DNA of 64,000 bases from Acidobacteria bacterium Mor1 (lineage in GTDB: Bacteria > Acidobacteriota > Polarisedimenticolia > Polarisedimenticolales > Polarisedimenticolaceae): contig CP011806.1 of the NCBI GenBank assembly GCA_001664505.1, forward strand, positions 3,048,378-3,112,377, given 5' to 3'. Below the pieces are notes generated by a model. It was not told where the DNA came from, ran no database searches, and worked only from the letters and a program-made list of their open reading frames with translations. A program made the position numbers and the translations under genes. Positions 35,047 through 44,753 of the stretch are shown here, in pieces. Every line of letters starts with the position of its first letter. The first letter of the stretch is position 1.

Positions 35047-35769
35047 ATGATGAGGAATTCGGCTTCGATTCCACCTTTCGCTGCGACGCCGGTACACCGC
35101 AGGCCGTCGCGATTGGTGACCTGGCTGACCCTCGTGGCCATTTTCCCCTGGGCGATCCTGCTCGCCGGCTGTTCGGCAAAGCAAGGTCCCACCACCTCGG
35201 GATTCCTCGGCGACTACTCGCAGCTCCGGTCCGGGCCCAAGGACGGTCCGATCCTCGTCTACAGCAGCGGGCCCGATGCACTGGCCCCGTACAAGCGCTT
35301 CATCATCGACCCGGTGCTGGTCTACTTCCACGCCGAGGCCGAGGGGGTCGCCGTCGACCCGACCGAGCTCGCGGAGCTGACCGACTACTTCCACGAGCAG
35401 ATCGTCTCGGAGTTGACCGAGGGGGGCTACGAAGTGGTCGATGCGCCGGGTGATGGCGTGGCCCGGATCCGGGTGGCGCTGACCGACGTGGATCCCGCCT
35501 CACCCGGGAAGAACATCGGAGCCAAGGCCGGCGGCATCGCGACCGGCGTCGGCATCCTGGTTCCGGCGCTGGACGTCGGCCGGGCGGCGATCGAGGTCGA
35601 GCTGGTCGACACCCGGACCTCGGAACGGATCGTCGCCGCCGTCGATCAGGATCGGGGCAAGCGCTTCTTCAACTTCAAGGGCAGCAGCACTCGTTGGGGC
35701 GACGCCAAAGGAGCGTTTCGCGACTGGGCCGGCCAGTTCGTCAAACGGCTGCAGGACCTGCATCGCTGA
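35047..35769 (+). CDS. DUF3313 family lipoprotein
   Basis: The 240-aa protein has a long basic N-terminus, a hydrophobic stretch and a lipobox (ILLAGC), so it should be lipidated and probably sits in the outer membrane. The mature part has the DUF3313 pattern (TSGFLGDYSQLRSGPKDG, YKRFIIDPVLVYF, ELTDYFHEQIVSELTEGGYEVVD) and a Gly-rich hydrophobic middle (IGAKAGGIATGVGILVPALDVG). The function is unknown. The GGGGG before ATG 35047 is a poor ribosome site; ATG 35050 is equally possible. It lies 82 nt before the efflux operon and divergent from hflK. Confidence 0.8.
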   Translation: MMRNSASIPPFAATPVHRRPSRLVTWLTLVAIFPWAILLAGCSAKQGPTTSGFLGDYSQLRSGPKDGPILVYSSGPDALAPYKRFIIDPVLVYFHAEAEGVAVDPTELAELTDYFHEQIVSELTEGGYEVVDAPGDGVARIRVALTDVDPASPGKNIGAKAGGIATGVGILVPALDVGRAAIEVELVDTRTSERIVAAVDQDRGKRFFNFKGSSTRWGDAKGAFRDWAGQFVKRLQDLHR

Positions 35770-35839
35770 CGTTCCGATCTGGCGCCGCAGGCATGCCGGG
35801 TGGCGCAAATCGCCGAGGCCCGGCCATTGCCCGCGGTGT

Positions 35840-35845
35840 TAGCAT
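35840..35845 (+). promoter_or_regulatory. -10-like TAGCAT 6 nt before the TolC-fusion gene
   Basis: TAGCAT (35840-35845) is followed by 6 bases and then ATG 35852, with no ribosome site in between, as expected for a leaderless mRNA. No -35 is evident. Confidence 0.4.
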
Positions 35846-35851
35846 GACGCC

Positions 35852-38266
35852 ATGCGCACCCTAGTTTTGATCGTCGCCATGCTGGCCATGTGCTGGCCGG
35901 CCTCGGGCTTCGCCCAGGAGAACCTGCCGGTCGTTCAGGTCGGTGTCATCTTCGACGGAACCGGCAACGGCCAGGACGTGCTGTTGATCGGTGAGCAGGC
36001 CCGGGCGCTCGCCGCCCTGCGGGAACAGACCCACGCCCTGACCCGCCGCCAGTTCGATGTCCGCTTCGACGAGAAGCACCTGGTCACCGGCGACTGGACG
36101 CTGGAGTCGATTCGCCGGGGCATCGACAAACTGCTGGCCGACCCCGAGGTCGACGTCGTCGTCTCCCTCGGCGCCCTGGCGACCAACGATCTGGTGCGCC
36201 GCGGGCCGATGCCCAAACCGGTGATCTGCGCCTGGGCCATCGATCCCCAGGCCCAGAACCTGCCGCTGGTGCGGGACACCTCGGGCGTCGAGAACATGAC
36301 CTACATCCTGACCCCCAACAGCATCCTGCGGGACCTGGGGAAGTTCCAGGAGGTGCTGCGGCTTTCCCGGGTGCACATCCTGGTCGACGAACTGTTCATC
36401 GAGGGCATTCCGGAGCTCGAGCAATACACCGCGGCCGCCGCGGCGACGCTGGGCATCGAACTGGTCACCATTCCGATCAAGGGCTCGGCGAGCGACGTGC
36501 TGCGACGGCTGCCTGCAGACATCGAGACCGCCTATCTCACACCCGCGATCCGCATGCCCGCCGCCGAGTTCGACAAGCTGATCCAGGGATTCAACCAACG
36601 CAAGATCCCGACCTTCTCGCTGCTGGGTGAGGCGGAGGTTCGCCGGGGCGTGCTCGCCGGCGTCGGCCGCCAGGCCGATCAGCTCCGGGTCGCGCGACGG
36701 CTGGCGCTGAACATCCAGCGGGTGCTGCTCGGGGACAATCCGTCCAAGCTCCCGGTAACCCTCGAAGAGCCCGACGGTCTGATGCTCAACCTGGCCACGG
36801 CCCGGGAGATCGGCGTCTACCCTCGCTGGCGGGTGCTGATCGAGGCGGAGTTGATCAACGACGACCGCACCGAACGGGGTCGCGACGTGAGCATGGCCGA
36901 TGCGGTCCAGGCGGCGGTCACCGCCAACCTCAACCTGACGGCCTTCGACCGCAGCGTCGCCGCAGGACAGGAAACCATCGAGCAGGCGCGCTCGGCCTTC
37001 CGGCCCCAGGCCCAGGCGTCGGTCAGCGGCGTCCAGATCGATCAGGATCGCGCCGCGGCCTCTTTCGGCCAGCAACCGGAACGCACCGGCACCGCGACGG
37101 TCGGCGTCTCGCAGCTGATCTACGGCGATGGCGCCCGGGCCAACCTGAAGATCGCGAGAGAAGGACAGCGCTCCCTGGTCGAGCAGCGGGAAGCGCTGAT
37201 GCTCGACATCGCCCTCGACACCTCGGTTGCGTTCCTCAACGTGCTGCGGGCCGAGACCCTGGAGCGCATTCAGCGGGACAACCTCAAGCTGACCGAATCC
37301 AACCTGGAGTTGGCCCGGCGGCGGGAGCGCATCGGCTCGGCGGGCCCCGCCGACGTCTACCGCTGGGAGAGCCGGCTGGCCAGCGACCGCAGCTCGGTGA
37401 TCACCGCATCGAACCAGACCCGGGCCGCCCGCAACGTGCTCAACCAGCTGATGAACCGGCCCCAGGAAGAACCTTTCCACGCCGTGGTTCCGGACCTCGA
37501 CGACAAGGGCATGTTCCCCGACTACAACCGCATCGAGACCTACGTGGACAACCCCCAGGCCTTTGGCCTGTTCCGGGAGTTCTCGGTGGGAGAGGGCCTG
37601 GACCGGTCGCCGGACCTGCGCGCCCTCGACGCCGCCATCGCAGCCCAGGACCGGGTGCTTCTGGCTGCGCGACGAAGCTTCTGGGCCCCCGAGGTCTCCC
37701 TCTCCGGCGAGGTCTCCGAGCGGTTCGAACAGAGCGGCGCCGGACTACCCATGAGCGGCACCGGGGTCCCCATCGCCGATCGCAACAACTGGAGCATCGG
37801 GCTATCGGCCGCACTCCCGCTCTACGTGGGCGGCGCACGCGATGCCGAGACCCGGCAGGCCCGCGAGACGGTGGCCCAGCTCCGCTTCGAACGGGATCTC
37901 GTGCGACAACAGGTCGAGCTCGGAATCCGCACCGCCCTCTACGACGCGGTCTCGACCTATCAGGCCATCGAACTGACCCGGGAAGCCGCCGATGCGGCGG
38001 ACAAGAACCTTGAGCTGATCGCCGACTCCTACACCCGCGGAGTGGTTCCGGTGATCAACCTGCTGGATGCGCAGAACGCGCAGCTGGTCGCGGCCCAGAG
38101 CGCCGAGAACTCGGTGTTCGACTTCATCATCGACATGATGGAAGTCCAGCGGGCGACCAACAACTTCGACTTCTTCGAATCGGACGAGGAGCGGAAAGCA
38201 TGGTTCCAACGACTCGACGGATTTATCGAGGAACGGGGCGGCACCGTCCCGGGAGCCACCCCGTGA
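35852..38266 (+). CDS. TolC-family outer-membrane efflux protein fused to an N-terminal ABC-type substrate-binding-like domain
   Basis: The protein is 804 aa, far longer than ordinary TolC (about 450-490). After a signal peptide (MRTLVLIVAMLAMCWPASGFAQ), residues about 25-330 look like a two-lobed periplasmic binding fold of the ABC_sub_bind type: VQVGVIFDGTGNGQ, DVVVSLGALATNDLV, TYILTPNSILRDLGKFQEV, and EEPDGLMLNLATAREIGV at the lobe end. Residues about 345-785 are TolC-like: two repeats with long helices (LNLTAFDRSVAAGQETIEQARSAFRPQ, LDIALDTSVAFLNVLRAE) and IGLSAALPLYVGGARDAE. It heads a coupled operon with an adaptor and an RND permease, so it should form the outer-membrane duct. The binding domain could sense or present cargo; that is inference. 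Confidence 0.88.
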   Translation: MRTLVLIVAMLAMCWPASGFAQENLPVVQVGVIFDGTGNGQDVLLIGEQARALAALREQTHALTRRQFDVRFDEKHLVTGDWTLESIRRGIDKLLADPEVDVVVSLGALATNDLVRRGPMPKPVICAWAIDPQAQNLPLVRDTSGVENMTYILTPNSILRDLGKFQEVLRLSRVHILVDELFIEGIPELEQYTAAAAATLGIELVTIPIKGSASDVLRRLPADIETAYLTPAIRMPAAEFDKLIQGFNQRKIPTFSLLGEAEVRRGVLAGVGRQADQLRVARRLALNIQRVLLGDNPSKLPVTLEEPDGLMLNLATAREIGVYPRWRVLIEAELINDDRTERGRDVSMADAVQAAVTANLNLTAFDRSVAAGQETIEQARSAFRPQAQASVSGVQIDQDRAAASFGQQPERTGTATVGVSQLIYGDGARANLKIAREGQRSLVEQREALMLDIALDTSVAFLNVLRAETLERIQRDNLKLTESNLELARRRERIGSAGPADVYRWESRLASDRSSVITASNQTRAARNVLNQLMNRPQEEPFHAVVPDLDDKGMFPDYNRIETYVDNPQAFGLFREFSVGEGLDRSPDLRALDAAIAAQDRVLLAARRSFWAPEVSLSGEVSERFEQSGAGLPMSGTGVPIADRNNWSIGLSAALPLYVGGARDAETRQARETVAQLRFERDLVRQQVELGIRTALYDAVSTYQAIELTREAADAADKNLELIADSYTRGVVPVINLLDAQNAQLVAAQSAENSVFDFIIDMMEVQRATNNFDFFESDEERKAWFQRLDGFIEERGGTVPGATP

Positions 38267-39354
38267 GCCGGCGGTTGACGGCACGGCGGCCCTTCCTCGC
38301 CCTGACGGCACTGTTGATTCTCGGCGGTTGCGCCGAGGAACCGGTGGTGGAAACCGTACTGCGCCCGGTGCGCAGTGAAACGGTGATGGCCACGGGGTCC
38401 GCCCGCAGCCGCACCTTCTCGGGCACCGCCCGGGCCAGCCAGGAAACCGAACTCAGCTTCCGGGTCAACGGCCGTATCGAACGGCTGGCGGTCAAGGTCG
38501 GCGACACCGTGCGCCGCAATCAGCTGATCGCCCGGCTCGAGCCGCGGGATTTCGAGATCGCGGTCAACCAGGCGGAAGCGGCGCTGGCCCAGTCCCAGGC
38601 AACCTTTCGCAACGCCGAGTCGGATCTCGAGCGCATCCGCGGCCTGTGGGAAAACAACAATGCGTCCCAGACCGAACTGGACCAGGCGACCGCCGGCTTC
38701 CAGTCCGCCCGGGCGGCGGTCGACGCGGCCCAGCAGAGCCTGGAGAGCGTGAAGCGTCAGTTGAGCTACTCGGCGCTGCGGGCGCCGGTGGGTGGCTCCA
38801 TCGCGGCGGTCAACGTCGAGGTCAACGAGAACGTGGGCAACGGGCAGGCGATCGTGCTGCTCACCTCGGGCGAGCGTCCCGAGGTCGAGGTCGCGATCCC
38901 CGAGGTGATGATCTCCCAGATCCACAAGGGGGACGCGGTCACCATCGGCTTCGACGCCCTGGAAGGAGAGTTCCCCGGGGTGGTCACCGAGGTCGGTGTG
39001 GCCTCCACCGCCAACGCCACCACCTTCCCGGTCACCGCCCGGCTCGAACGGGAGAACCCGGACATCCGCTTCGGCATGGCGGCCAACGTGACCTTCCGCT
39101 TCAGCGGCGAGGACCGGCAGCGCATCCTGCTGCCGAGCCACGCGGTCGCCGCCGATGACGACGGCTCCTTCGTCTTCGTACTGGAAGCCTCCGGCGAAAC
39201 CGGCGTGGTCCGCCGCCGTGGCGTCGAGGTCGGGCCGCTGACCGCCGACGGCCTGGAGATTCTTTCCGGCGTCGAGGTCGGCGAACAGGTGGTCACCGCC
39301 GGGGTCGCGCGACTGACCGACGGACAGCAGGTCAAGTTGCCGAGACAGTCATGA
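38263..39354 (+). CDS. RND efflux periplasmic adaptor (membrane fusion protein), lipoprotein
   Basis: The protein is 363 aa from GTG 38263, which overlaps the stop of the TolC-like gene (GTGA) and has GGGAGC about 6 nt upstream. A lipobox (LILGGC) places it on the inner membrane facing the periplasm. It has the HlyD_D23-type lipoyl halves (TELSFRVNGRIERLAVKVGDTV and SYSALRAPVGGSIAAVNVEVNENV), a helical hairpin rich in Ala and Gln, a beta-barrel (PEVEVAIPEVMISQIHKGD) and a membrane-proximal domain. It bridges the TolC-like duct and the permease. Confidence 0.93.
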   Translation: MSRRLTARRPFLALTALLILGGCAEEPVVETVLRPVRSETVMATGSARSRTFSGTARASQETELSFRVNGRIERLAVKVGDTVRRNQLIARLEPRDFEIAVNQAEAALAQSQATFRNAESDLERIRGLWENNNASQTELDQATAGFQSARAAVDAAQQSLESVKRQLSYSALRAPVGGSIAAVNVEVNENVGNGQAIVLLTSGERPEVEVAIPEVMISQIHKGDAVTIGFDALEGEFPGVVTEVGVASTANATTFPVTARLERENPDIRFGMAANVTFRFSGEDRQRILLPSHAVAADDDGSFVFVLEASGETGVVRRRGVEVGPLTADGLEILSGVEVGEQVVTAGVARLTDGQQVKLPRQS

Positions 39355-42300
39355 ACCTGACCCAGCTCGCGATCGAGAAGAACCGGATCACCATCATCGC
39401 CCTGGCGGTGGTGTTCTTCGCCGGGATGCAGGCCTACTTCACCCTGCCCCGCAGCGAAGACCCCGGCTTCATCATCCGCACCGCGGTGGTGCAGACCCGG
39501 CTCCCCGGCGCCAGCCCCGCCCGGGTCGAGCAACTGGTCACCGACAAGCTCGAGAAGGCGATCCAGGAGATCCCCGAGCTCGACTTCGTCAACAGCCAGT
39601 CGAAGACCGGCGTATCGATCGTCTTCGCCAACTTCCGCGAAGAGTACAAGAACATGCGCCCGATCTTCGACAACCTGCGGCGCAAGGTCGACCGGGCGCG
39701 GGGGGAGCTCCCCGACGGCGTGATCGGGCCCAGCGTCGACGACGAGTTCGGCGACGTGTTCGGCATCATGGTCGGCATCTCCGGTGACGCCGCCTTTTCC
39801 TACCGCGAGTTGAAGGACATCGCCGACGAGGTCCGTGACGAGCTGCTGCTGATCAACGAGGTGGCCAAGGTCGAGATCTACGGCGACCAGGACGAACGGA
39901 TCTTCGTCGAGTACAACAACGCGCGCCTGTCCGAGCTCGGCATCTCGCCGGGACAGCTCCAAAACATCCTGCAGTCGCAGAACATCATCATTTCCGGCGG
40001 CGACGTCCGTACCGACTACGAGACCTTCGTCATCGAACCCTCGGGCAACTTCGAGACGGTCACCGATCTGGAGCAGACGGTCATTCCGCTCCCCGGCAGT
40101 ACCCAGGTGACCTACCTGCGCGACGTCGCCGAGGTCCAGCGGGGCTACATCGATCCCCCGCGCCAGCGGGTGCGGGTCGACGGGGGCCCGGGGCTGGTCC
40201 TGGCGATCTCGATGCGCGAGGGCGGACGGATCAACGTTCTCGGTGAGGAGGTCAACGCCACCATCGAACGGGTGCGCGGCTTCTACCCGATCGGAATCGA
40301 CTTCAACTACATCCAGTTCCAGCCCGAGGTGGTCGAGCAGGTCGTCGCCAGCTTCGTCGAGAACCTGATCCAGGCGGTGCTGATCGTGGCCGGCGTGATG
40401 CTCCTGTTCCTGGGGCTGCGCACCGGACTGATCGTCTCGAGCCTGATCCCGATGGCGATGGTCGCCGCGATCTTCGTCATGAGCCTCTTCGACATCAGCA
40501 TCGATCAGATGTCGATCGCCTCGCTGATCATCGCCCTGGGCATGCTGGTCGACAACGCCATCGTGATGTCCGAATCGATCATGGTGCAGGTGGGCGAGGG
40601 CAAACCGAAGCTCAAGGCCGCCGTGGACTCGGCCAACGAGCTGCGCATGCCGCTGTTGACCTCGTCGCTGACCACCGCCGCGGCGTTCCTGCCGATCTTC
40701 CTGGCCGAATCGGCGGTCGGCGAATACACCGCCGCGCTGTTCAAGGTGGTGACCATCACCCTGCTCTGCTCCTGGGTGCTGTCGCTGACCATGATCCCGA
40801 TGCTCTGCGTCGCCTTCCTCAAGGTACCGAAGAACCAGGGCGGCACCGACTTCAACACCCGCTTCTACCGCACCTTCCGCTCGATGCTGCTCACCGGGCT
40901 CAAGCAGCCGTTGTTGGCCCTGGCCGGCGTCGTCGTGCTGTTCTTCGTCGCGGTCTTCGGCATGGGCTTCGTCCCGGCGCTGTTCTTCCCCGACAACGAC
41001 CGGGCGACCTTCACCGTCGAGATCGAACTGCCGCTCTACACCCCGATTCACCACACCGAGGAGATCGTGCGGGAGATCGAGGAGCATCTGGAGCGGGAGT
41101 ACAAGGTGGGCCCCGACCGTGAAGAGGGCATCCTCAACTGGAGCACCTTCATCGGCAGCGGCGCACCGCGTTTCATGCTTTCGTACAACCCCGAACAGTC
41201 GGCACCCAACTACGGCGTGATGGTGGTCAACACCACGTCGCGGCCGCTGGTGGACACCTACGCCGAAGAAATCGAGCGCTGGATTCGCGATCGCTACCCC
41301 GACGTGGTGCCGATCGCCCGGGCGCTCTCGTCGGGCCCCTCGAGCTGGCCTCCGGTGGCGATCCGTATCAGCGGCCGGGACACCGAGGAGCTGTTCGCCC
41401 TGGTCGACCAGGTCAAGGGCCGGGTCACCGAAACCGACGGCGCCGTGCTGCTGGGAGACAGCTGGGGATCCCGGGCCAAGAAGCTGTTCGTCGACATCAA
41501 CCAGCCCCGGGCCCGCCGGGCCGGGATCACCAACCAGGACATCGCGATCTCGCTGCAGACCTTCCTCAGCGGCCTGGAGGTCACCGAGTTCCGTGAAGGG
41601 GACGAGCTGATCCCGGTGATGCTGCGCTCGGTCTCCGCCGAACGCCAGGCCCTGGACAAGCTCGAAACGCTGAACGTCTACGCCCAGTCCACCGGCAATT
41701 CGGTTCCGCTGAGCCAGGTCGCCGACATCGACGTGCAGTTCCAGGCGTCTCAGATCCTGCGCCGCGACCGGCTCAAGACGGTGACCGTCGAGGCGGCAAC
41801 CGATCCCGGCTACACCGCGGCCGCGGTCACCGCCCCCCTGGCCGAATGGCTGGCCGAGGAATCGAAGAACTGGCCGCTCGGCTACAAGTACGAGCTCGGC
41901 GGTGAAGATGAGGACTCCGCCGAGGCCAACGCCTCGATCGGCGCCAAGCTGCCCATCGCCGGCCTGATCATCATTCTGTTGCTGGTCGGCCAGTTCAACT
42001 CGGTGCGCCGCCCGGCGATCATCCTGCTGACGATTCCGCTGAGCATCATCGGCGTCACCGCAGGGCTCTTGATCTGGCGGTCCTACTTCGGCTTCATGAC
42101 CCTGCTCGGCATCATCTCGCTGGCCGGGATCGTGATCAACAACGCCATCGTGCTGCTCGACCGCATCCGCATCGAGATCGACGACAACGGACTCACCCCT
42201 CAGCAAGCGATCGTCGAGTCGGCCCAGCGGCGGCTGCGCCCGATCCTGCTGACCACCTGCACCACCCTGGGCGGTCTGATCCCGTTGTGGCTCGGGGGCG

Positions 42301-42443
42301 GCGCAATGTGGGAGCCGATGGCCATCAGCATCATTCACGGCCTGCTCTTCGCCACGGCGTTGACCCTGGGTGTGGTGCCGATTCTCTATTCCCTGTTCTT
42401 CCGGGTCAGCTTCAAGAACTACGCCTACAAACCGGCCAAGTAA
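39351..42443 (+). CDS. RND-family efflux permease (AcrB/HAE-like)
   Basis: This 1030-aa proton-driven inner-membrane transporter has the typical N-terminal helix (NRITIIALAVVFFAGMQAYFTLPR), two large periplasmic loops and two blocks of five-plus membrane helices. One holds SLIIALGMLVDNAIVMSES, the TM4 block with the conserved acidic residue, and the other FMTLLGIISLAGIVINNAIVLLDR. The closing sequence is TLGVVPILYSLFFRV. Length is normal for the family. ATG overlaps the adaptor stop (ATGA). The cargo is unknown; drugs, lipids or metals are possible, and there is no heavy-metal signature that I can see. Confidence 0.94.
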   Translation: MNLTQLAIEKNRITIIALAVVFFAGMQAYFTLPRSEDPGFIIRTAVVQTRLPGASPARVEQLVTDKLEKAIQEIPELDFVNSQSKTGVSIVFANFREEYKNMRPIFDNLRRKVDRARGELPDGVIGPSVDDEFGDVFGIMVGISGDAAFSYRELKDIADEVRDELLLINEVAKVEIYGDQDERIFVEYNNARLSELGISPGQLQNILQSQNIIISGGDVRTDYETFVIEPSGNFETVTDLEQTVIPLPGSTQVTYLRDVAEVQRGYIDPPRQRVRVDGGPGLVLAISMREGGRINVLGEEVNATIERVRGFYPIGIDFNYIQFQPEVVEQVVASFVENLIQAVLIVAGVMLLFLGLRTGLIVSSLIPMAMVAAIFVMSLFDISIDQMSIASLIIALGMLVDNAIVMSESIMVQVGEGKPKLKAAVDSANELRMPLLTSSLTTAAAFLPIFLAESAVGEYTAALFKVVTITLLCSWVLSLTMIPMLCVAFLKVPKNQGGTDFNTRFYRTFRSMLLTGLKQPLLALAGVVVLFFVAVFGMGFVPALFFPDNDRATFTVEIELPLYTPIHHTEEIVREIEEHLEREYKVGPDREEGILNWSTFIGSGAPRFMLSYNPEQSAPNYGVMVVNTTSRPLVDTYAEEIERWIRDRYPDVVPIARALSSGPSSWPPVAIRISGRDTEELFALVDQVKGRVTETDGAVLLGDSWGSRAKKLFVDINQPRARRAGITNQDIAISLQTFLSGLEVTEFREGDELIPVMLRSVSAERQALDKLETLNVYAQSTGNSVPLSQVADIDVQFQASQILRRDRLKTVTVEAATDPGYTAAAVTAPLAEWLAEESKNWPLGYKYELGGEDEDSAEANASIGAKLPIAGLIIILLLVGQFNSVRRPAIILLTIPLSIIGVTAGLLIWRSYFGFMTLLGIISLAGIVINNAIVLLDRIRIEIDDNGLTPQQAIVESAQRRLRPILLTTCTTLGGLIPLWLGGGAMWEPMAISIIHGLLFATALTLGVVPILYSLFFRVSFKNYAYKPAK

Positions 42444-42599
42444 CTCCGCCGGGGAGACCCGGGAACCGATCCGGAAGGCGCCGCCCGGGCGAGCCGCGAA
42501 AGCGGCTTCGGCCTCGGCCTGTCGTGTTATCGTCGCCTCAACGACGGCCGCGGCGCCGGCCGGCTCGACGCCGCCGTCACGCTCCCCCTGGAGGTTGCG

Positions 42600-44753
42600 A
42601 TGGAATCCGCCCGGGTGCCGCTGGGGCTCGTGCAGCAGGTGCTGGACCTGCTGGAAGTCGGGCACTACTTCCGGCCGGCGCTGCTGATCGGCGTTCTGCT
42701 GCTGATCGTGCCCCTGGCCAGCCTCGGCCTGGTGCGCCCGCTGGAATCGATGCTGGGCAACCTGCTGCGGGGATTGCACCCGCGTAAGGGCTGGCTCGGA
42801 CCGCTGAGCGGCGACGTGATGTGGGTTTCCCTGGTCGGCATGGGCGCCGCGTGGTCGGCGATGACCACCTTTGCACTGCTGCAACGCACCTGGCCCCTGG
42901 CCAAGACCGGCAGCTATCCGGCCGCCGAAGGTCCTCTGGTCAGCGCCCCGGTCTTCGCGGTCTTCACGGCGCTCGGCCTCGTGACCGTGGTCGCCGCGGT
43001 CATCCGGGCCAAGGTCACCCCCCGGACCGGCAATCGCATCCACGCCTGCGTGGGCGCCGCCGCGGGCATCGGCGTCGCCGGCGCCATCGGCTACGTCGCC
43101 TCCTGGCCGGCGGTGATGTCCGAGCCCTCGCTGCGTCTGATGCCCTTCCCGGTGCCTGCGGTACCGGGAAGCGAACTGGCCGAACGGGTCCGCGCCCTGG
43201 TCTCCGACGTGCTCATCGGTTTCGGCCTGGTGGATAGCGGCCTGCTGCACAACGGTTGGATCCGCCCCGAGCACTATCACGCCATCGTCGTCACCGGCCT
43301 GCTGTCGGGCCTGTTGATGGCGGGCTACCTGCTGAGCCCCGAACGGAGCAACCGGTACCTCCCGGCAGCGGTGTACCTGTTCACCTTGATCACCTTCCTC
43401 AACTGGTTCCTGGTCGGCCTCTATGTGCGGGTCGGCCCGATGGTGCCGGTTTCGTTGATCCTGCTGCTGTGGTTCCTGATTCCCGCCGCGCTTCTCACCC
43501 GGCGCGGTTGGCGCTACGGCTACTTCCACGAGCTGCGCCGCCGCGGCGACAGCGAAAGGCTGCAGCCGGAACAGCTCCTCGACGCGTTGGGCAACGGGCC
43601 GAACCTGGTGGTGATCGCCATGTCCGGCGGCGGCATCCAGGCGGCGGGTTGGTTCACCTGGGTGCTCGGCAAGCTCTCCGCCCGGCGACGGGAACTGCTG
43701 GACGAACTGCGCATCGTCAGCGCCGTCTCCGGAGGGTCCGTCGGCCTCGCCTTCGTGTTGGAGTCGCTCCAGCGCTTCGGCCGCACGAACACCGAGGAAA
43801 CCCTGCGGCAGGCCCATCGGCGCTCGGTGGCCTCCAGCCTGTCGTCGGTAGCCTTCGGCCTGACCTACCGCAGCACCTCGCGCTTCCTTTCGCTGCAGCT
43901 ACTGTCGCTGCTTCACGGGCCGTTCTGGGACCGCGGCCGACTCCTCGAACGGGCCTGGCAACAGAACGCCGACGAAGACGCGCCTCCACTCGAGGCTCCC
44001 GACGGCGGACAGGCCCTGGAACAACTCACCGGCGAGATCCGCCGCGGCGAGCTGCCGCTGCCGATTCTCAACGCCACCGCCATGCGAAGCGGCGAGCGGG
44101 TCCTGCTGACGCCGCTGGCCCTCGATCCCGCGGCGGACGGCTGCTCGCTGGCCCGCTTCACCGACGACGACGACGTCGATATTCCGCTGTGGACCGCCGC
44201 GCGGCTGTCGGCGACCTTCCCCTACGTCAGCCCCGCCTCACGGGGCTACGTGCGGGCCGCCCGTGGCTCGGGCGAGAAATCGGAACTCAAGGTCAAGCAT
44301 CTGATCGACGGCGGGTACCACGACAACAGCGGCCTGGTCTCCCTTTGCGAGGTGTTGAACCGGGTGTTGCCCCACGCCCCCTCCAGCCTGGAGCGGGTCG
44401 CGGTCATCGAGATCGAGGCCTTCCGTTCTCCCCTGGCCACCGACGGCTCGAAACCCTGGCAGGCGGCGCTGCTCGGCCCGGTGCGCGGCATCCTCTCCGC
44501 CCGGGGTCAGACCCAGCGCGAGCGACGCCGGGCCACCGTCGAGGCGCTGCGCGAGACCTGGCCGAACCTCGACATCAAGCACTTCTGCTTCGAGCCCGAA
44601 TCTCCGCGGGAAGGGCGTCTGTCCTGGCACCTGACCAGCGAAGACAAGCAGCACCTGCGGGATGCCTGGCAGCAGGGCAACGAGCTGGAACTCGGCTCCC
44701 TGAGCGCCTTCCTCTCCACCGAGGATTCCAACCGGGAGGAGGAATCGGCCTAG
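42600..44753 (+). CDS. membrane-anchored patatin-like phospholipase
   Basis: The 717-aa protein has six or more hydrophobic helices in residues about 25-310, e.g. ALLIGVLLLIVPLASLGLV and VSLILLLWFLIPAALL. A patatin domain follows: the oxyanion-hole block IAMSGGGIQAAGW, the nucleophile elbow SAVSGGSVG with Ser380, and the catalytic Asp570 in IDGGYHDNSG. Patatins are lipid acyl hydrolases. The long membrane part is unlike soluble bacterial patatins and would hold the active site at the cytoplasmic membrane. GGAGG is 5 nt before ATG 42600. It is 156 nt downstream of the RND permease and may have its own promoter. Confidence 0.88.
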   Translation: MESARVPLGLVQQVLDLLEVGHYFRPALLIGVLLLIVPLASLGLVRPLESMLGNLLRGLHPRKGWLGPLSGDVMWVSLVGMGAAWSAMTTFALLQRTWPLAKTGSYPAAEGPLVSAPVFAVFTALGLVTVVAAVIRAKVTPRTGNRIHACVGAAAGIGVAGAIGYVASWPAVMSEPSLRLMPFPVPAVPGSELAERVRALVSDVLIGFGLVDSGLLHNGWIRPEHYHAIVVTGLLSGLLMAGYLLSPERSNRYLPAAVYLFTLITFLNWFLVGLYVRVGPMVPVSLILLLWFLIPAALLTRRGWRYGYFHELRRRGDSERLQPEQLLDALGNGPNLVVIAMSGGGIQAAGWFTWVLGKLSARRRELLDELRIVSAVSGGSVGLAFVLESLQRFGRTNTEETLRQAHRRSVASSLSSVAFGLTYRSTSRFLSLQLLSLLHGPFWDRGRLLERAWQQNADEDAPPLEAPDGGQALEQLTGEIRRGELPLPILNATAMRSGERVLLTPLALDPAADGCSLARFTDDDDVDIPLWTAARLSATFPYVSPASRGYVRAARGSGEKSELKVKHLIDGGYHDNSGLVSLCEVLNRVLPHAPSSLERVAVIEIEAFRSPLATDGSKPWQAALLGPVRGILSARGQTQRERRRATVEALRETWPNLDIKHFCFEPESPREGRLSWHLTSEDKQHLRDAWQQGNELELGSLSAFLSTEDSNREEESA

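Follow-up and report, generated by a model that had tools for sequence, protein, structure and literature searches.

The window analyzed here, a stretch of 64,000 nucleotides from Acidobacteria bacterium Mor1, carries a gene whose product joins a substrate-binding protein (SBP) lobe to a TolC-type outer membrane factor (Table 1). The frame opens with ATG and closes with TGA, and about 340 residues precede the OEP part, of which some 21 resemble, by eye, a signal peptide. When the N-terminal part was searched for an ABC_sub_bind domain, as the earlier note had proposed, Pfam matched PF04392 at residues 94-332 (38.2 bits against a gathering score of 25.9, E 1.3e-9). The OEP model PF02321 was matched twice (156.4 bits against a gathering score of 22, E 9.6e-46).

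Table 1. Features of the fused gene and its neighbors, in positions of the window
Feature	Position	Strand	Basis
DUF3313 protein, just upstream of the fusion	35047..35769	+	Pfam
Fused ORF: signal peptide, ABC_sub_bind lobe and TolC-type outer membrane factor, 804 aa	35852..38266	+	ORF, Pfam, AlphaFold2 model
Probable cleavable signal peptide, residues 1-21, cleavage after GFA	35852..35914	+	By eye
SBP-fold lobe, residues 26-335 (PF04392)	35927..36856	+	Pfam, lobe profile, lobe model, structural comparison
Short conserved junction, residues 336-344	36857..36883	+	51-row alignment
Complete TolC/OEP part, residues 345-771, two PF02321 repeats	36884..38164	+	Pfam, phmmer, Foldseek
C-terminal extension, predicted helix 778-794, moderately conserved across the fused family	38165..38263	+	Alignment, model
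RND periplasmic adaptor, TIGR01730 244.4 bits (cut-off 94.9), LGGC lipobox by eye	38263..39354	+	Profile search
RND permease, PF00873 E 1.5e-158	39351..42443	+	Pfam

AlphaFold2, run on monomers with 51 sequences as input, gave a full-chain model with a mean pLDDT of 88.0 and a pTM of 0.74, and a model of the lobe (residues 26-338) with a pLDDT of 93.7 and a pTM of 0.90. Foldseek placed TolC-type ducts first among the matches to the full model (1ek9 at E 1e-16, with TMt of about 0.70-0.85 in the top rows), and the same model also matched 3lft and 3lkv (E about 1e-11, TMt 0.75-0.79) as well as CD0873 (6hni). Structural comparison of the lobe gave Z scores of 25.2 for 3lkv (288 residues, 3.5 A), 24.6 for 3lft and 23.8 for 6hni, at 12-18% identity over 287-289 residues; beyond these three, other SBPs and receptors of the same general fold scored Z 18 and below. 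A profile of 21 lobes matched 3lkv (1.6e-9) and 3lft (1.1e-5), and a phmmer search of the PDB matched the second part to MtrE and TolC and residues 122-328 to 3lkv (E 0.0023). PF02321 was matched in all 51 homologues and PF04392, at E <= 0.001, in 27 of the 51, so that the fused-lobe subfamily lies at the edge of the PF04392 model. The earlier note had described an ABC-type binding-protein-like N-terminus followed by a complete TolC in one 804-aa frame, a description that it said would fall if profiles showed no binding-protein fold. That fold was found by sequence profile and in the predicted structure alike, and the description stands. We conclude that, as judged from sequence profiles and predicted models, both a TolC-type duct and a two-lobed SBP are present in one chain.

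The fusion had also been placed in an RND operon, which the gene spacing confirms. A GTG at 38263, within the fusion's stop, can serve as start of the adaptor gene (a 4-nt overlap, GTGA), and the permease starts at 39351 inside the end of the adaptor gene, again with a 4-nt overlap. The RND tripartite set is complete, with adaptor, RND permease and duct in one operon. The solved proteins closest to the permease are MexK (578 bits) and 6vej (570 bits), the latter of which we take to be TriC of Pseudomonas; to our knowledge the MexJK operon has no duct gene, whereas the operon in the window carries the fused duct. Because the DUF3313 protein encoded upstream has no match among the 80 loci listed (see below), it probably lies outside the system. 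Pfam found no ABC importer permease or ATPase genes at 35047-44753, where the neighbors of the fusion encode the DUF3313 protein, the RND adaptor, the RND permease and a patatin. This last gene, directly after the permease at 42600-44753, encodes 717 aa; residues 340-578 are patatin-like, and the N-terminal part is long and hydrophobic.

The fusion has relatives in many genomes. A scan of genome contigs with the single protein as query returned no relative. With the lobe as query, 6 of 60 genomes gave a match, the organism's own included, and in each of the six a match lies in a frame of 769-876 aa. Named genomes were scanned with a six-sequence alignment, which confirmed 127 relatives, and the best 80 by score, a choice biased to full matches, were examined. 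In all 80 loci of these best 80 of 127, the frame that encodes the duct encodes the lobe as well, at least in part, some loci being cut by contig ends and one (L049) split into two frames; aligned members are 28-46% identical over the full length. Record labels of the 80 loci, nearly all of which are metagenome bins whose labels may err, cover about a dozen phyla and include Acidobacteria, KSB1, Deltaproteobacteria, Desulfobacterales, Dadabacteria, Gammaproteobacteria, Krumholzibacteriia, Calditrichaeota, Latescibacterota, Planctomycetota, Myxococcales, Bacteroidetes/Rhodothermales and Ignavibacteria. One of the carriers, Desulfuromusa kysingii DSM 7343, is a named strain, and the cultured carriers include this species and Sulfuricurvum kujiense. 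Records of carriers label the protein 'ABC transporter substrate binding protein' or 'TolC family protein'.

Within the window's own phylum, with both profiles checked, the fusion occurs in 14 of 247 sampled genomes, its own genome included. That genome (5.985 Mb, one contig) holds a single copy; its other matches at E <= 0.01 are two weak ones in one 534-aa frame, which the duct model matched and the lobe model did not. Among 247 genomes of Desulfuromusa's phylum, 13 matches of at least 138 bits fall in 11 genomes, all in frames of at least 758 aa, the duct part having been checked in two of the 13 (L081 and L144). The fusion is rare in the phylum of L095, where, among 398 genomes, a fusion-size match at E <= 1e-20 was seen in the centre genome only. 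Plasmid pSULKU01 of S. kujiense DSM 16994 encodes a fusion of 803 aa (lobe 305 bits, duct 438 bits), and a plasmid record of Cetobacterium somerae has a fusion beside an RND pair, with a much weaker lobe (26.9 bits). No match was found in the phage records searched. The distribution is wide and patchy. This survey, which the earlier note had suggested, bears on the reading that the frame is a chance in-frame joining or an artefact in its own genome: with the same chain at every one of the 80 loci (best 80 of 127) and in 14 of the 247 genomes sampled from the phylum, that reading is refuted by conservation and we reject it as vanishingly improbable.

In a tree of the OEP part with 65 fused and 8 unfused rows, the fused or unfused label needs 2 changes, and the nearest unfused ducts, L117 and L118, form an unresolved fork with fused rows. 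The tree is compatible with a single origin of the fusion and with more than one. In the loci around these two ducts, L119 and L120, adaptor-like genes accompany genes of FUSC type (aromatic acid exporters); Pfam confirmed FUSC and HlyD in L120 only. Another kind of fusion was seen in two genomes of one family of the phylum, where an RND permease and a TolC-type OEP share one frame of 1474 or 1494 aa (L122:3946-8370, minus strand, and L123:2549-7033, plus strand). A signal-peptide-like hydrophobic stretch lies between permease and OEP, as if an internal signal exported the duct part.

The pumps that accompany the fusion are of more than one kind. Among the 80 loci (best 80 of 127), an RND permease stands beside the fusion in 54 and an RbbA-type ABC exporter in 14, while neither was found in 12, of which nine have at least one flank under 5 kb; in L029, L038 and L039, no pump was found in nearly 7 kb on both sides. 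The RND partners fall mainly into two classes, one near the window's permease (about 970-1260 bits when complete) and one at about 565-610 bits, in which adaptor and permease lie mostly upstream of the fusion. The ABC partners, as defined by Pfam in L081 and L061, are of exporter type: an HlyD-type adaptor, a protein with ABC_tran twice plus ABC2_membrane, and a second ABC2_membrane protein. On pSULKU01 the gene order is TetR, fusion, HlyD, rbbA, ABC permease. Since RND permeases (54 of 80) and RbbA-type ABC exporters (14 of 80) both occur, the lobe is linked to the duct rather than to a single pump. As a separate observation, the positions of AcrB D407/D408 are D-N and that of K940 is N in 24 of 25 permeases from the window's class; in the other class, 20 of 21 have D-N and K there. 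In the window permease (39351-42443), the segments at those places are residues 399-405 and 927-936; the correspondence to AcrB is one that we assume from the MexK alignment.

We then compared lobe, junction and duct in 51-row alignments of the window and 50 of the 80 loci, from which truncated frames had been removed by hand, along with several that were similar to others or overlong. Between A332 and the first OEP helix lie 16 residues in 48 of the 51 rows, 15 in two and 18 in one, while a comparison loop that separates duct strands spans a range of at least 11 to 26. This constant length argues for fixed docking and against a swinging tether. The pattern [LVI][ASTVIG][GAS]C was absent from the first 45 residues in 51 of 51 rows; the candidate explanation that the lobe brings a lipid anchor was rejected for this reason. 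Pairwise distances of lobe and duct are correlated (r 0.815 over 1275 pairs, with 0 of 2000 permutations as high), with mean distances of 0.63 for the lobe and 0.57 for the duct, and by this sequence measure the two parts diverge together.

Invariant in the lobe (51/51) are D35, G107, P123, G266, R282, G294, N313 and A332. Two of these, D35 and G107, together with the nearly invariant S144, G145 and N148, would lie at or near cleft-facing loops, as placed from strand order. The predicted-cleft loops were not more conserved than the opposite loops, either overall (p 0.98) or within three subgroups (p 0.998, 0.83 and 0.87), and the same test on 21 standalone SBPs likewise gave p 0.99, so that the measure does not discriminate. 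A DN pair has a role in lobe 2 of the solved aromatic-amino-acid relatives. When the 21-lobe profile was aligned to 3lkv, it showed no DN pair of lobe 2 and no aromatic residue at the place of Y262, while the conserved D and N of the lobe-1 loops are partly kept. According to PMC6816091, from whose spacing the VC_1101 residue numbers were matched, A246 and Y262 of that protein and their counterparts set the ligand in solved relatives. With the aromatic residue and the DN pair absent, an aromatic amino acid bound in the same mode would not be expected from the alignment.

Relatives of the lobe outside ducts are of two kinds. Lobe matches above 180 bits in the 247 genomes of the window's phylum number 17, made up of 14 duct fusions and 3 BON fusions, and none of the 17 is standalone. 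The BON fusions (L130:2545-4194, L131:2188-3816 and L132:1438-3072, all minus strand; 542-549 aa) join the same SBP subfamily to one or more BON domains and have no duct. Eight further matches in this phylum (45-60 bits) are in frames of 323-347 aa (seven) and 493 aa (one), and the 247 genomes of Desulfuromusa's phylum gave 11 matches of 79-114 bits in frames of 342-412 aa. The proposal that the lobe is an ordinary ABC-importer binding protein was rejected, given the lack of importer genes beside the fusion and of standalone strong-scoring members in the 247 genomes.

Nine loci were fetched for the standalone relatives, and the lobe was located in seven of them (not L141 or L143), the 100-bit copy of L139 coming from a separate search. 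In the seven, the nearest standalone relatives (79-114 bits) stand beside MFS_1 proteins or, in L142 and L145, histidine kinases. The MFS_1 neighbors, extended by about 300-400 residues at the N-terminus, were confirmed by Pfam in L136, L137 and L138; ORFs in L139 and L140 begin in the same way as the MFS_1 protein of L138, and three further genes of L145 are, by eye, LivM, LivH and LivK. These neighborhoods point to sensing more than import. In L138-L140, one and the same conserved gene block contains a pair of distinct standalone SBPs some kb apart, one scoring about 60 bits and the other about 100 bits against the lobe model.

The reading that we place ahead of the others, tentatively, is that the lobe is a ligand-responsive collar fixed on the duct and not a fishing tether. 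The protein would be a TolC-type outer membrane factor whose N-terminal part is an SBP lobe, so that a trimer would carry three of them. After export, each lobe would dock outside the duct near the equatorial ring, the region of the TolC N-terminus and, in E. coli, of YbjP binding. This placement is an analogy that draws on the lobe ending 16 residues before the first duct helix and on TolC/YbjP geometry: in PMC13082787, YbjP fills the space alongside the first TolC helix, which extends from the equatorial domain to the membrane. Binding of a periplasmic small molecule would close the lobe and alter the stability, docking or opening of the duct, whichever pump is attached; hand-over of cargo from the lobe into the channel forms no part of this proposal. 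Sensing fits, because standalone relatives adjoin histidine kinases or MFS proteins with long N-terminal parts. Also in favor are both folds in a single frame, the lobe's association with the duct under two pump classes, the constant junction, the correlated divergence, the lack of standalone proteins among the 17 strong matches and the invariant D35; the lobe-2 ligand positions that are not kept and the three loci (L029, L038 and L039) in whose long flanks no pump was found count against it. A bolder version, which we consider rather doubtful, is a ligand-gated duct in which the three SBP lobes, held at the equatorial ring by the conserved 16-residue junction, close on a periplasmic metabolite and open or prime the TolC-type channel, serving RND and ABC pumps. 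With it goes the equally doubtful idea that the moment for export is sensed at the outer membrane end of the machine and not by the pump.

The alternative that comes next, less probable than the ligand-responsive collar although it deserves serious weight, is that the SBP fold has been kept and its ligand binding lost, leaving a structural collar that stabilizes the trimer, keeps it at a distance from peptidoglycan or from the outer membrane, or stands in for an N-terminal lipid or a YbjP-like partner. The short constant junction, the lack of a lipobox in 51 of 51 rows, the variable cleft loops (those of lobe 2 above all), the varying partner pumps and the lobes on BON-domain proteins would all agree with such a role, as does YbjP itself, which PMC13082787 describes as a globular partner between equatorial ring and membrane. 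A purely structural part would, however, need no two-lobed clamshell, and both the invariant or nearly invariant residues placed at or near the cleft and the sensors beside standalone relatives count against it.

The remaining alternatives give the lobe cargo or a message to carry. The TolC duct wall is closed. The earlier note had proposed that the lobe could take up ligand directly or act as a gate of the duct; the binding-protein fold holds, while direct capture into the duct looks unlikely, because the lobe would sit outside a closed-walled trimer on a short, constant junction and follows the duct across pumps. Gating or sensing is possible. Capture of substrate in the periplasm and its passage to adaptor or pump, which we rank third and judge unlikely, could appeal to the operon with an efflux pump and to the fold, which is the cargo-binding fold of ABC importers. 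It has a precedent in SilB, whose CusF-like C-terminal domain is a cargo-binding domain on an efflux component and has been proposed to hand metal on (PMC4446572). Yet it is the duct, and neither adaptor nor pump, that bears the lobe, so that cargo would have to travel back to the pump entrance; its junction is no swinging tether, the pump class varies between RND and ABC, and the lobe is also fused to BON without a duct. Still less probable is an efflux-coupled sensor in which the lobe reports ligand to another envelope component, such as a kinase or regulator, with the duct merely an anchor. Histidine kinases beside standalone relatives in L142 and L145 and the BON fusions favor it, but none of the five window genes tested around the fusion encodes a kinase (0/5), and only TetR-type regulators flank the fusion in the annotated plasmid operon.

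Against known systems, the chain resembles TolC and other outer membrane factors (PF02321; E. coli TolC, MtrE, OprM) in its complete two-repeat OEP and in a predicted fold that matches solved TolC. It differs in the lobe of about 310 residues added before the OEP and in the C-terminal helical extension. Like E. coli TolC, and unlike N-terminally lipidated factors of the OprM and CusC type, the fused family has no lipobox cysteine (51/51). The lobe shares its two-lobed fold with the ABC_sub_bind proteins VC_1101 (3lkv), SP1069/TrpX (3lft) and CD0873 (6hni), but it sits on a duct without ABC importer genes, and the ligand-side residues named in PMC6816091 are not kept. E. coli YbjP-TolC (9v52, 9tg4) likewise has a globular periplasmic module outside TolC, from ring to membrane, an arrangement presumed for the fusion; YbjP is a separate lipoprotein of another family, whereas the fusion is one chain with no lipid motif. 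SilB (PMC4446572) also has a binding domain covalently within a tripartite efflux system, although there it is a metal-binding barrel on the RND adaptor and here an SBP clamshell on the duct. Bucl8, mentioned as an unusual duct in a long review of tripartite systems (PMC8277102), is also an outer membrane factor with an added non-OEP region, which is collagen-like and of another fold.

Duct and fold are each known, and their combination is apparently unstudied: among the mainly open-access papers listed by our searches, no title or opening of an abstract describes an SBP-TolC fusion. In models of tripartite efflux (PMC7396618, PMC8277102), the choice of substrate lies in the inner membrane pump and the adaptor. 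We found no study, in the open-access literature searched, of an input at the outer membrane end of an efflux machine. A binding-protein fold on the duct, kept across many phyla and two pump classes, suggests that such an input exists.
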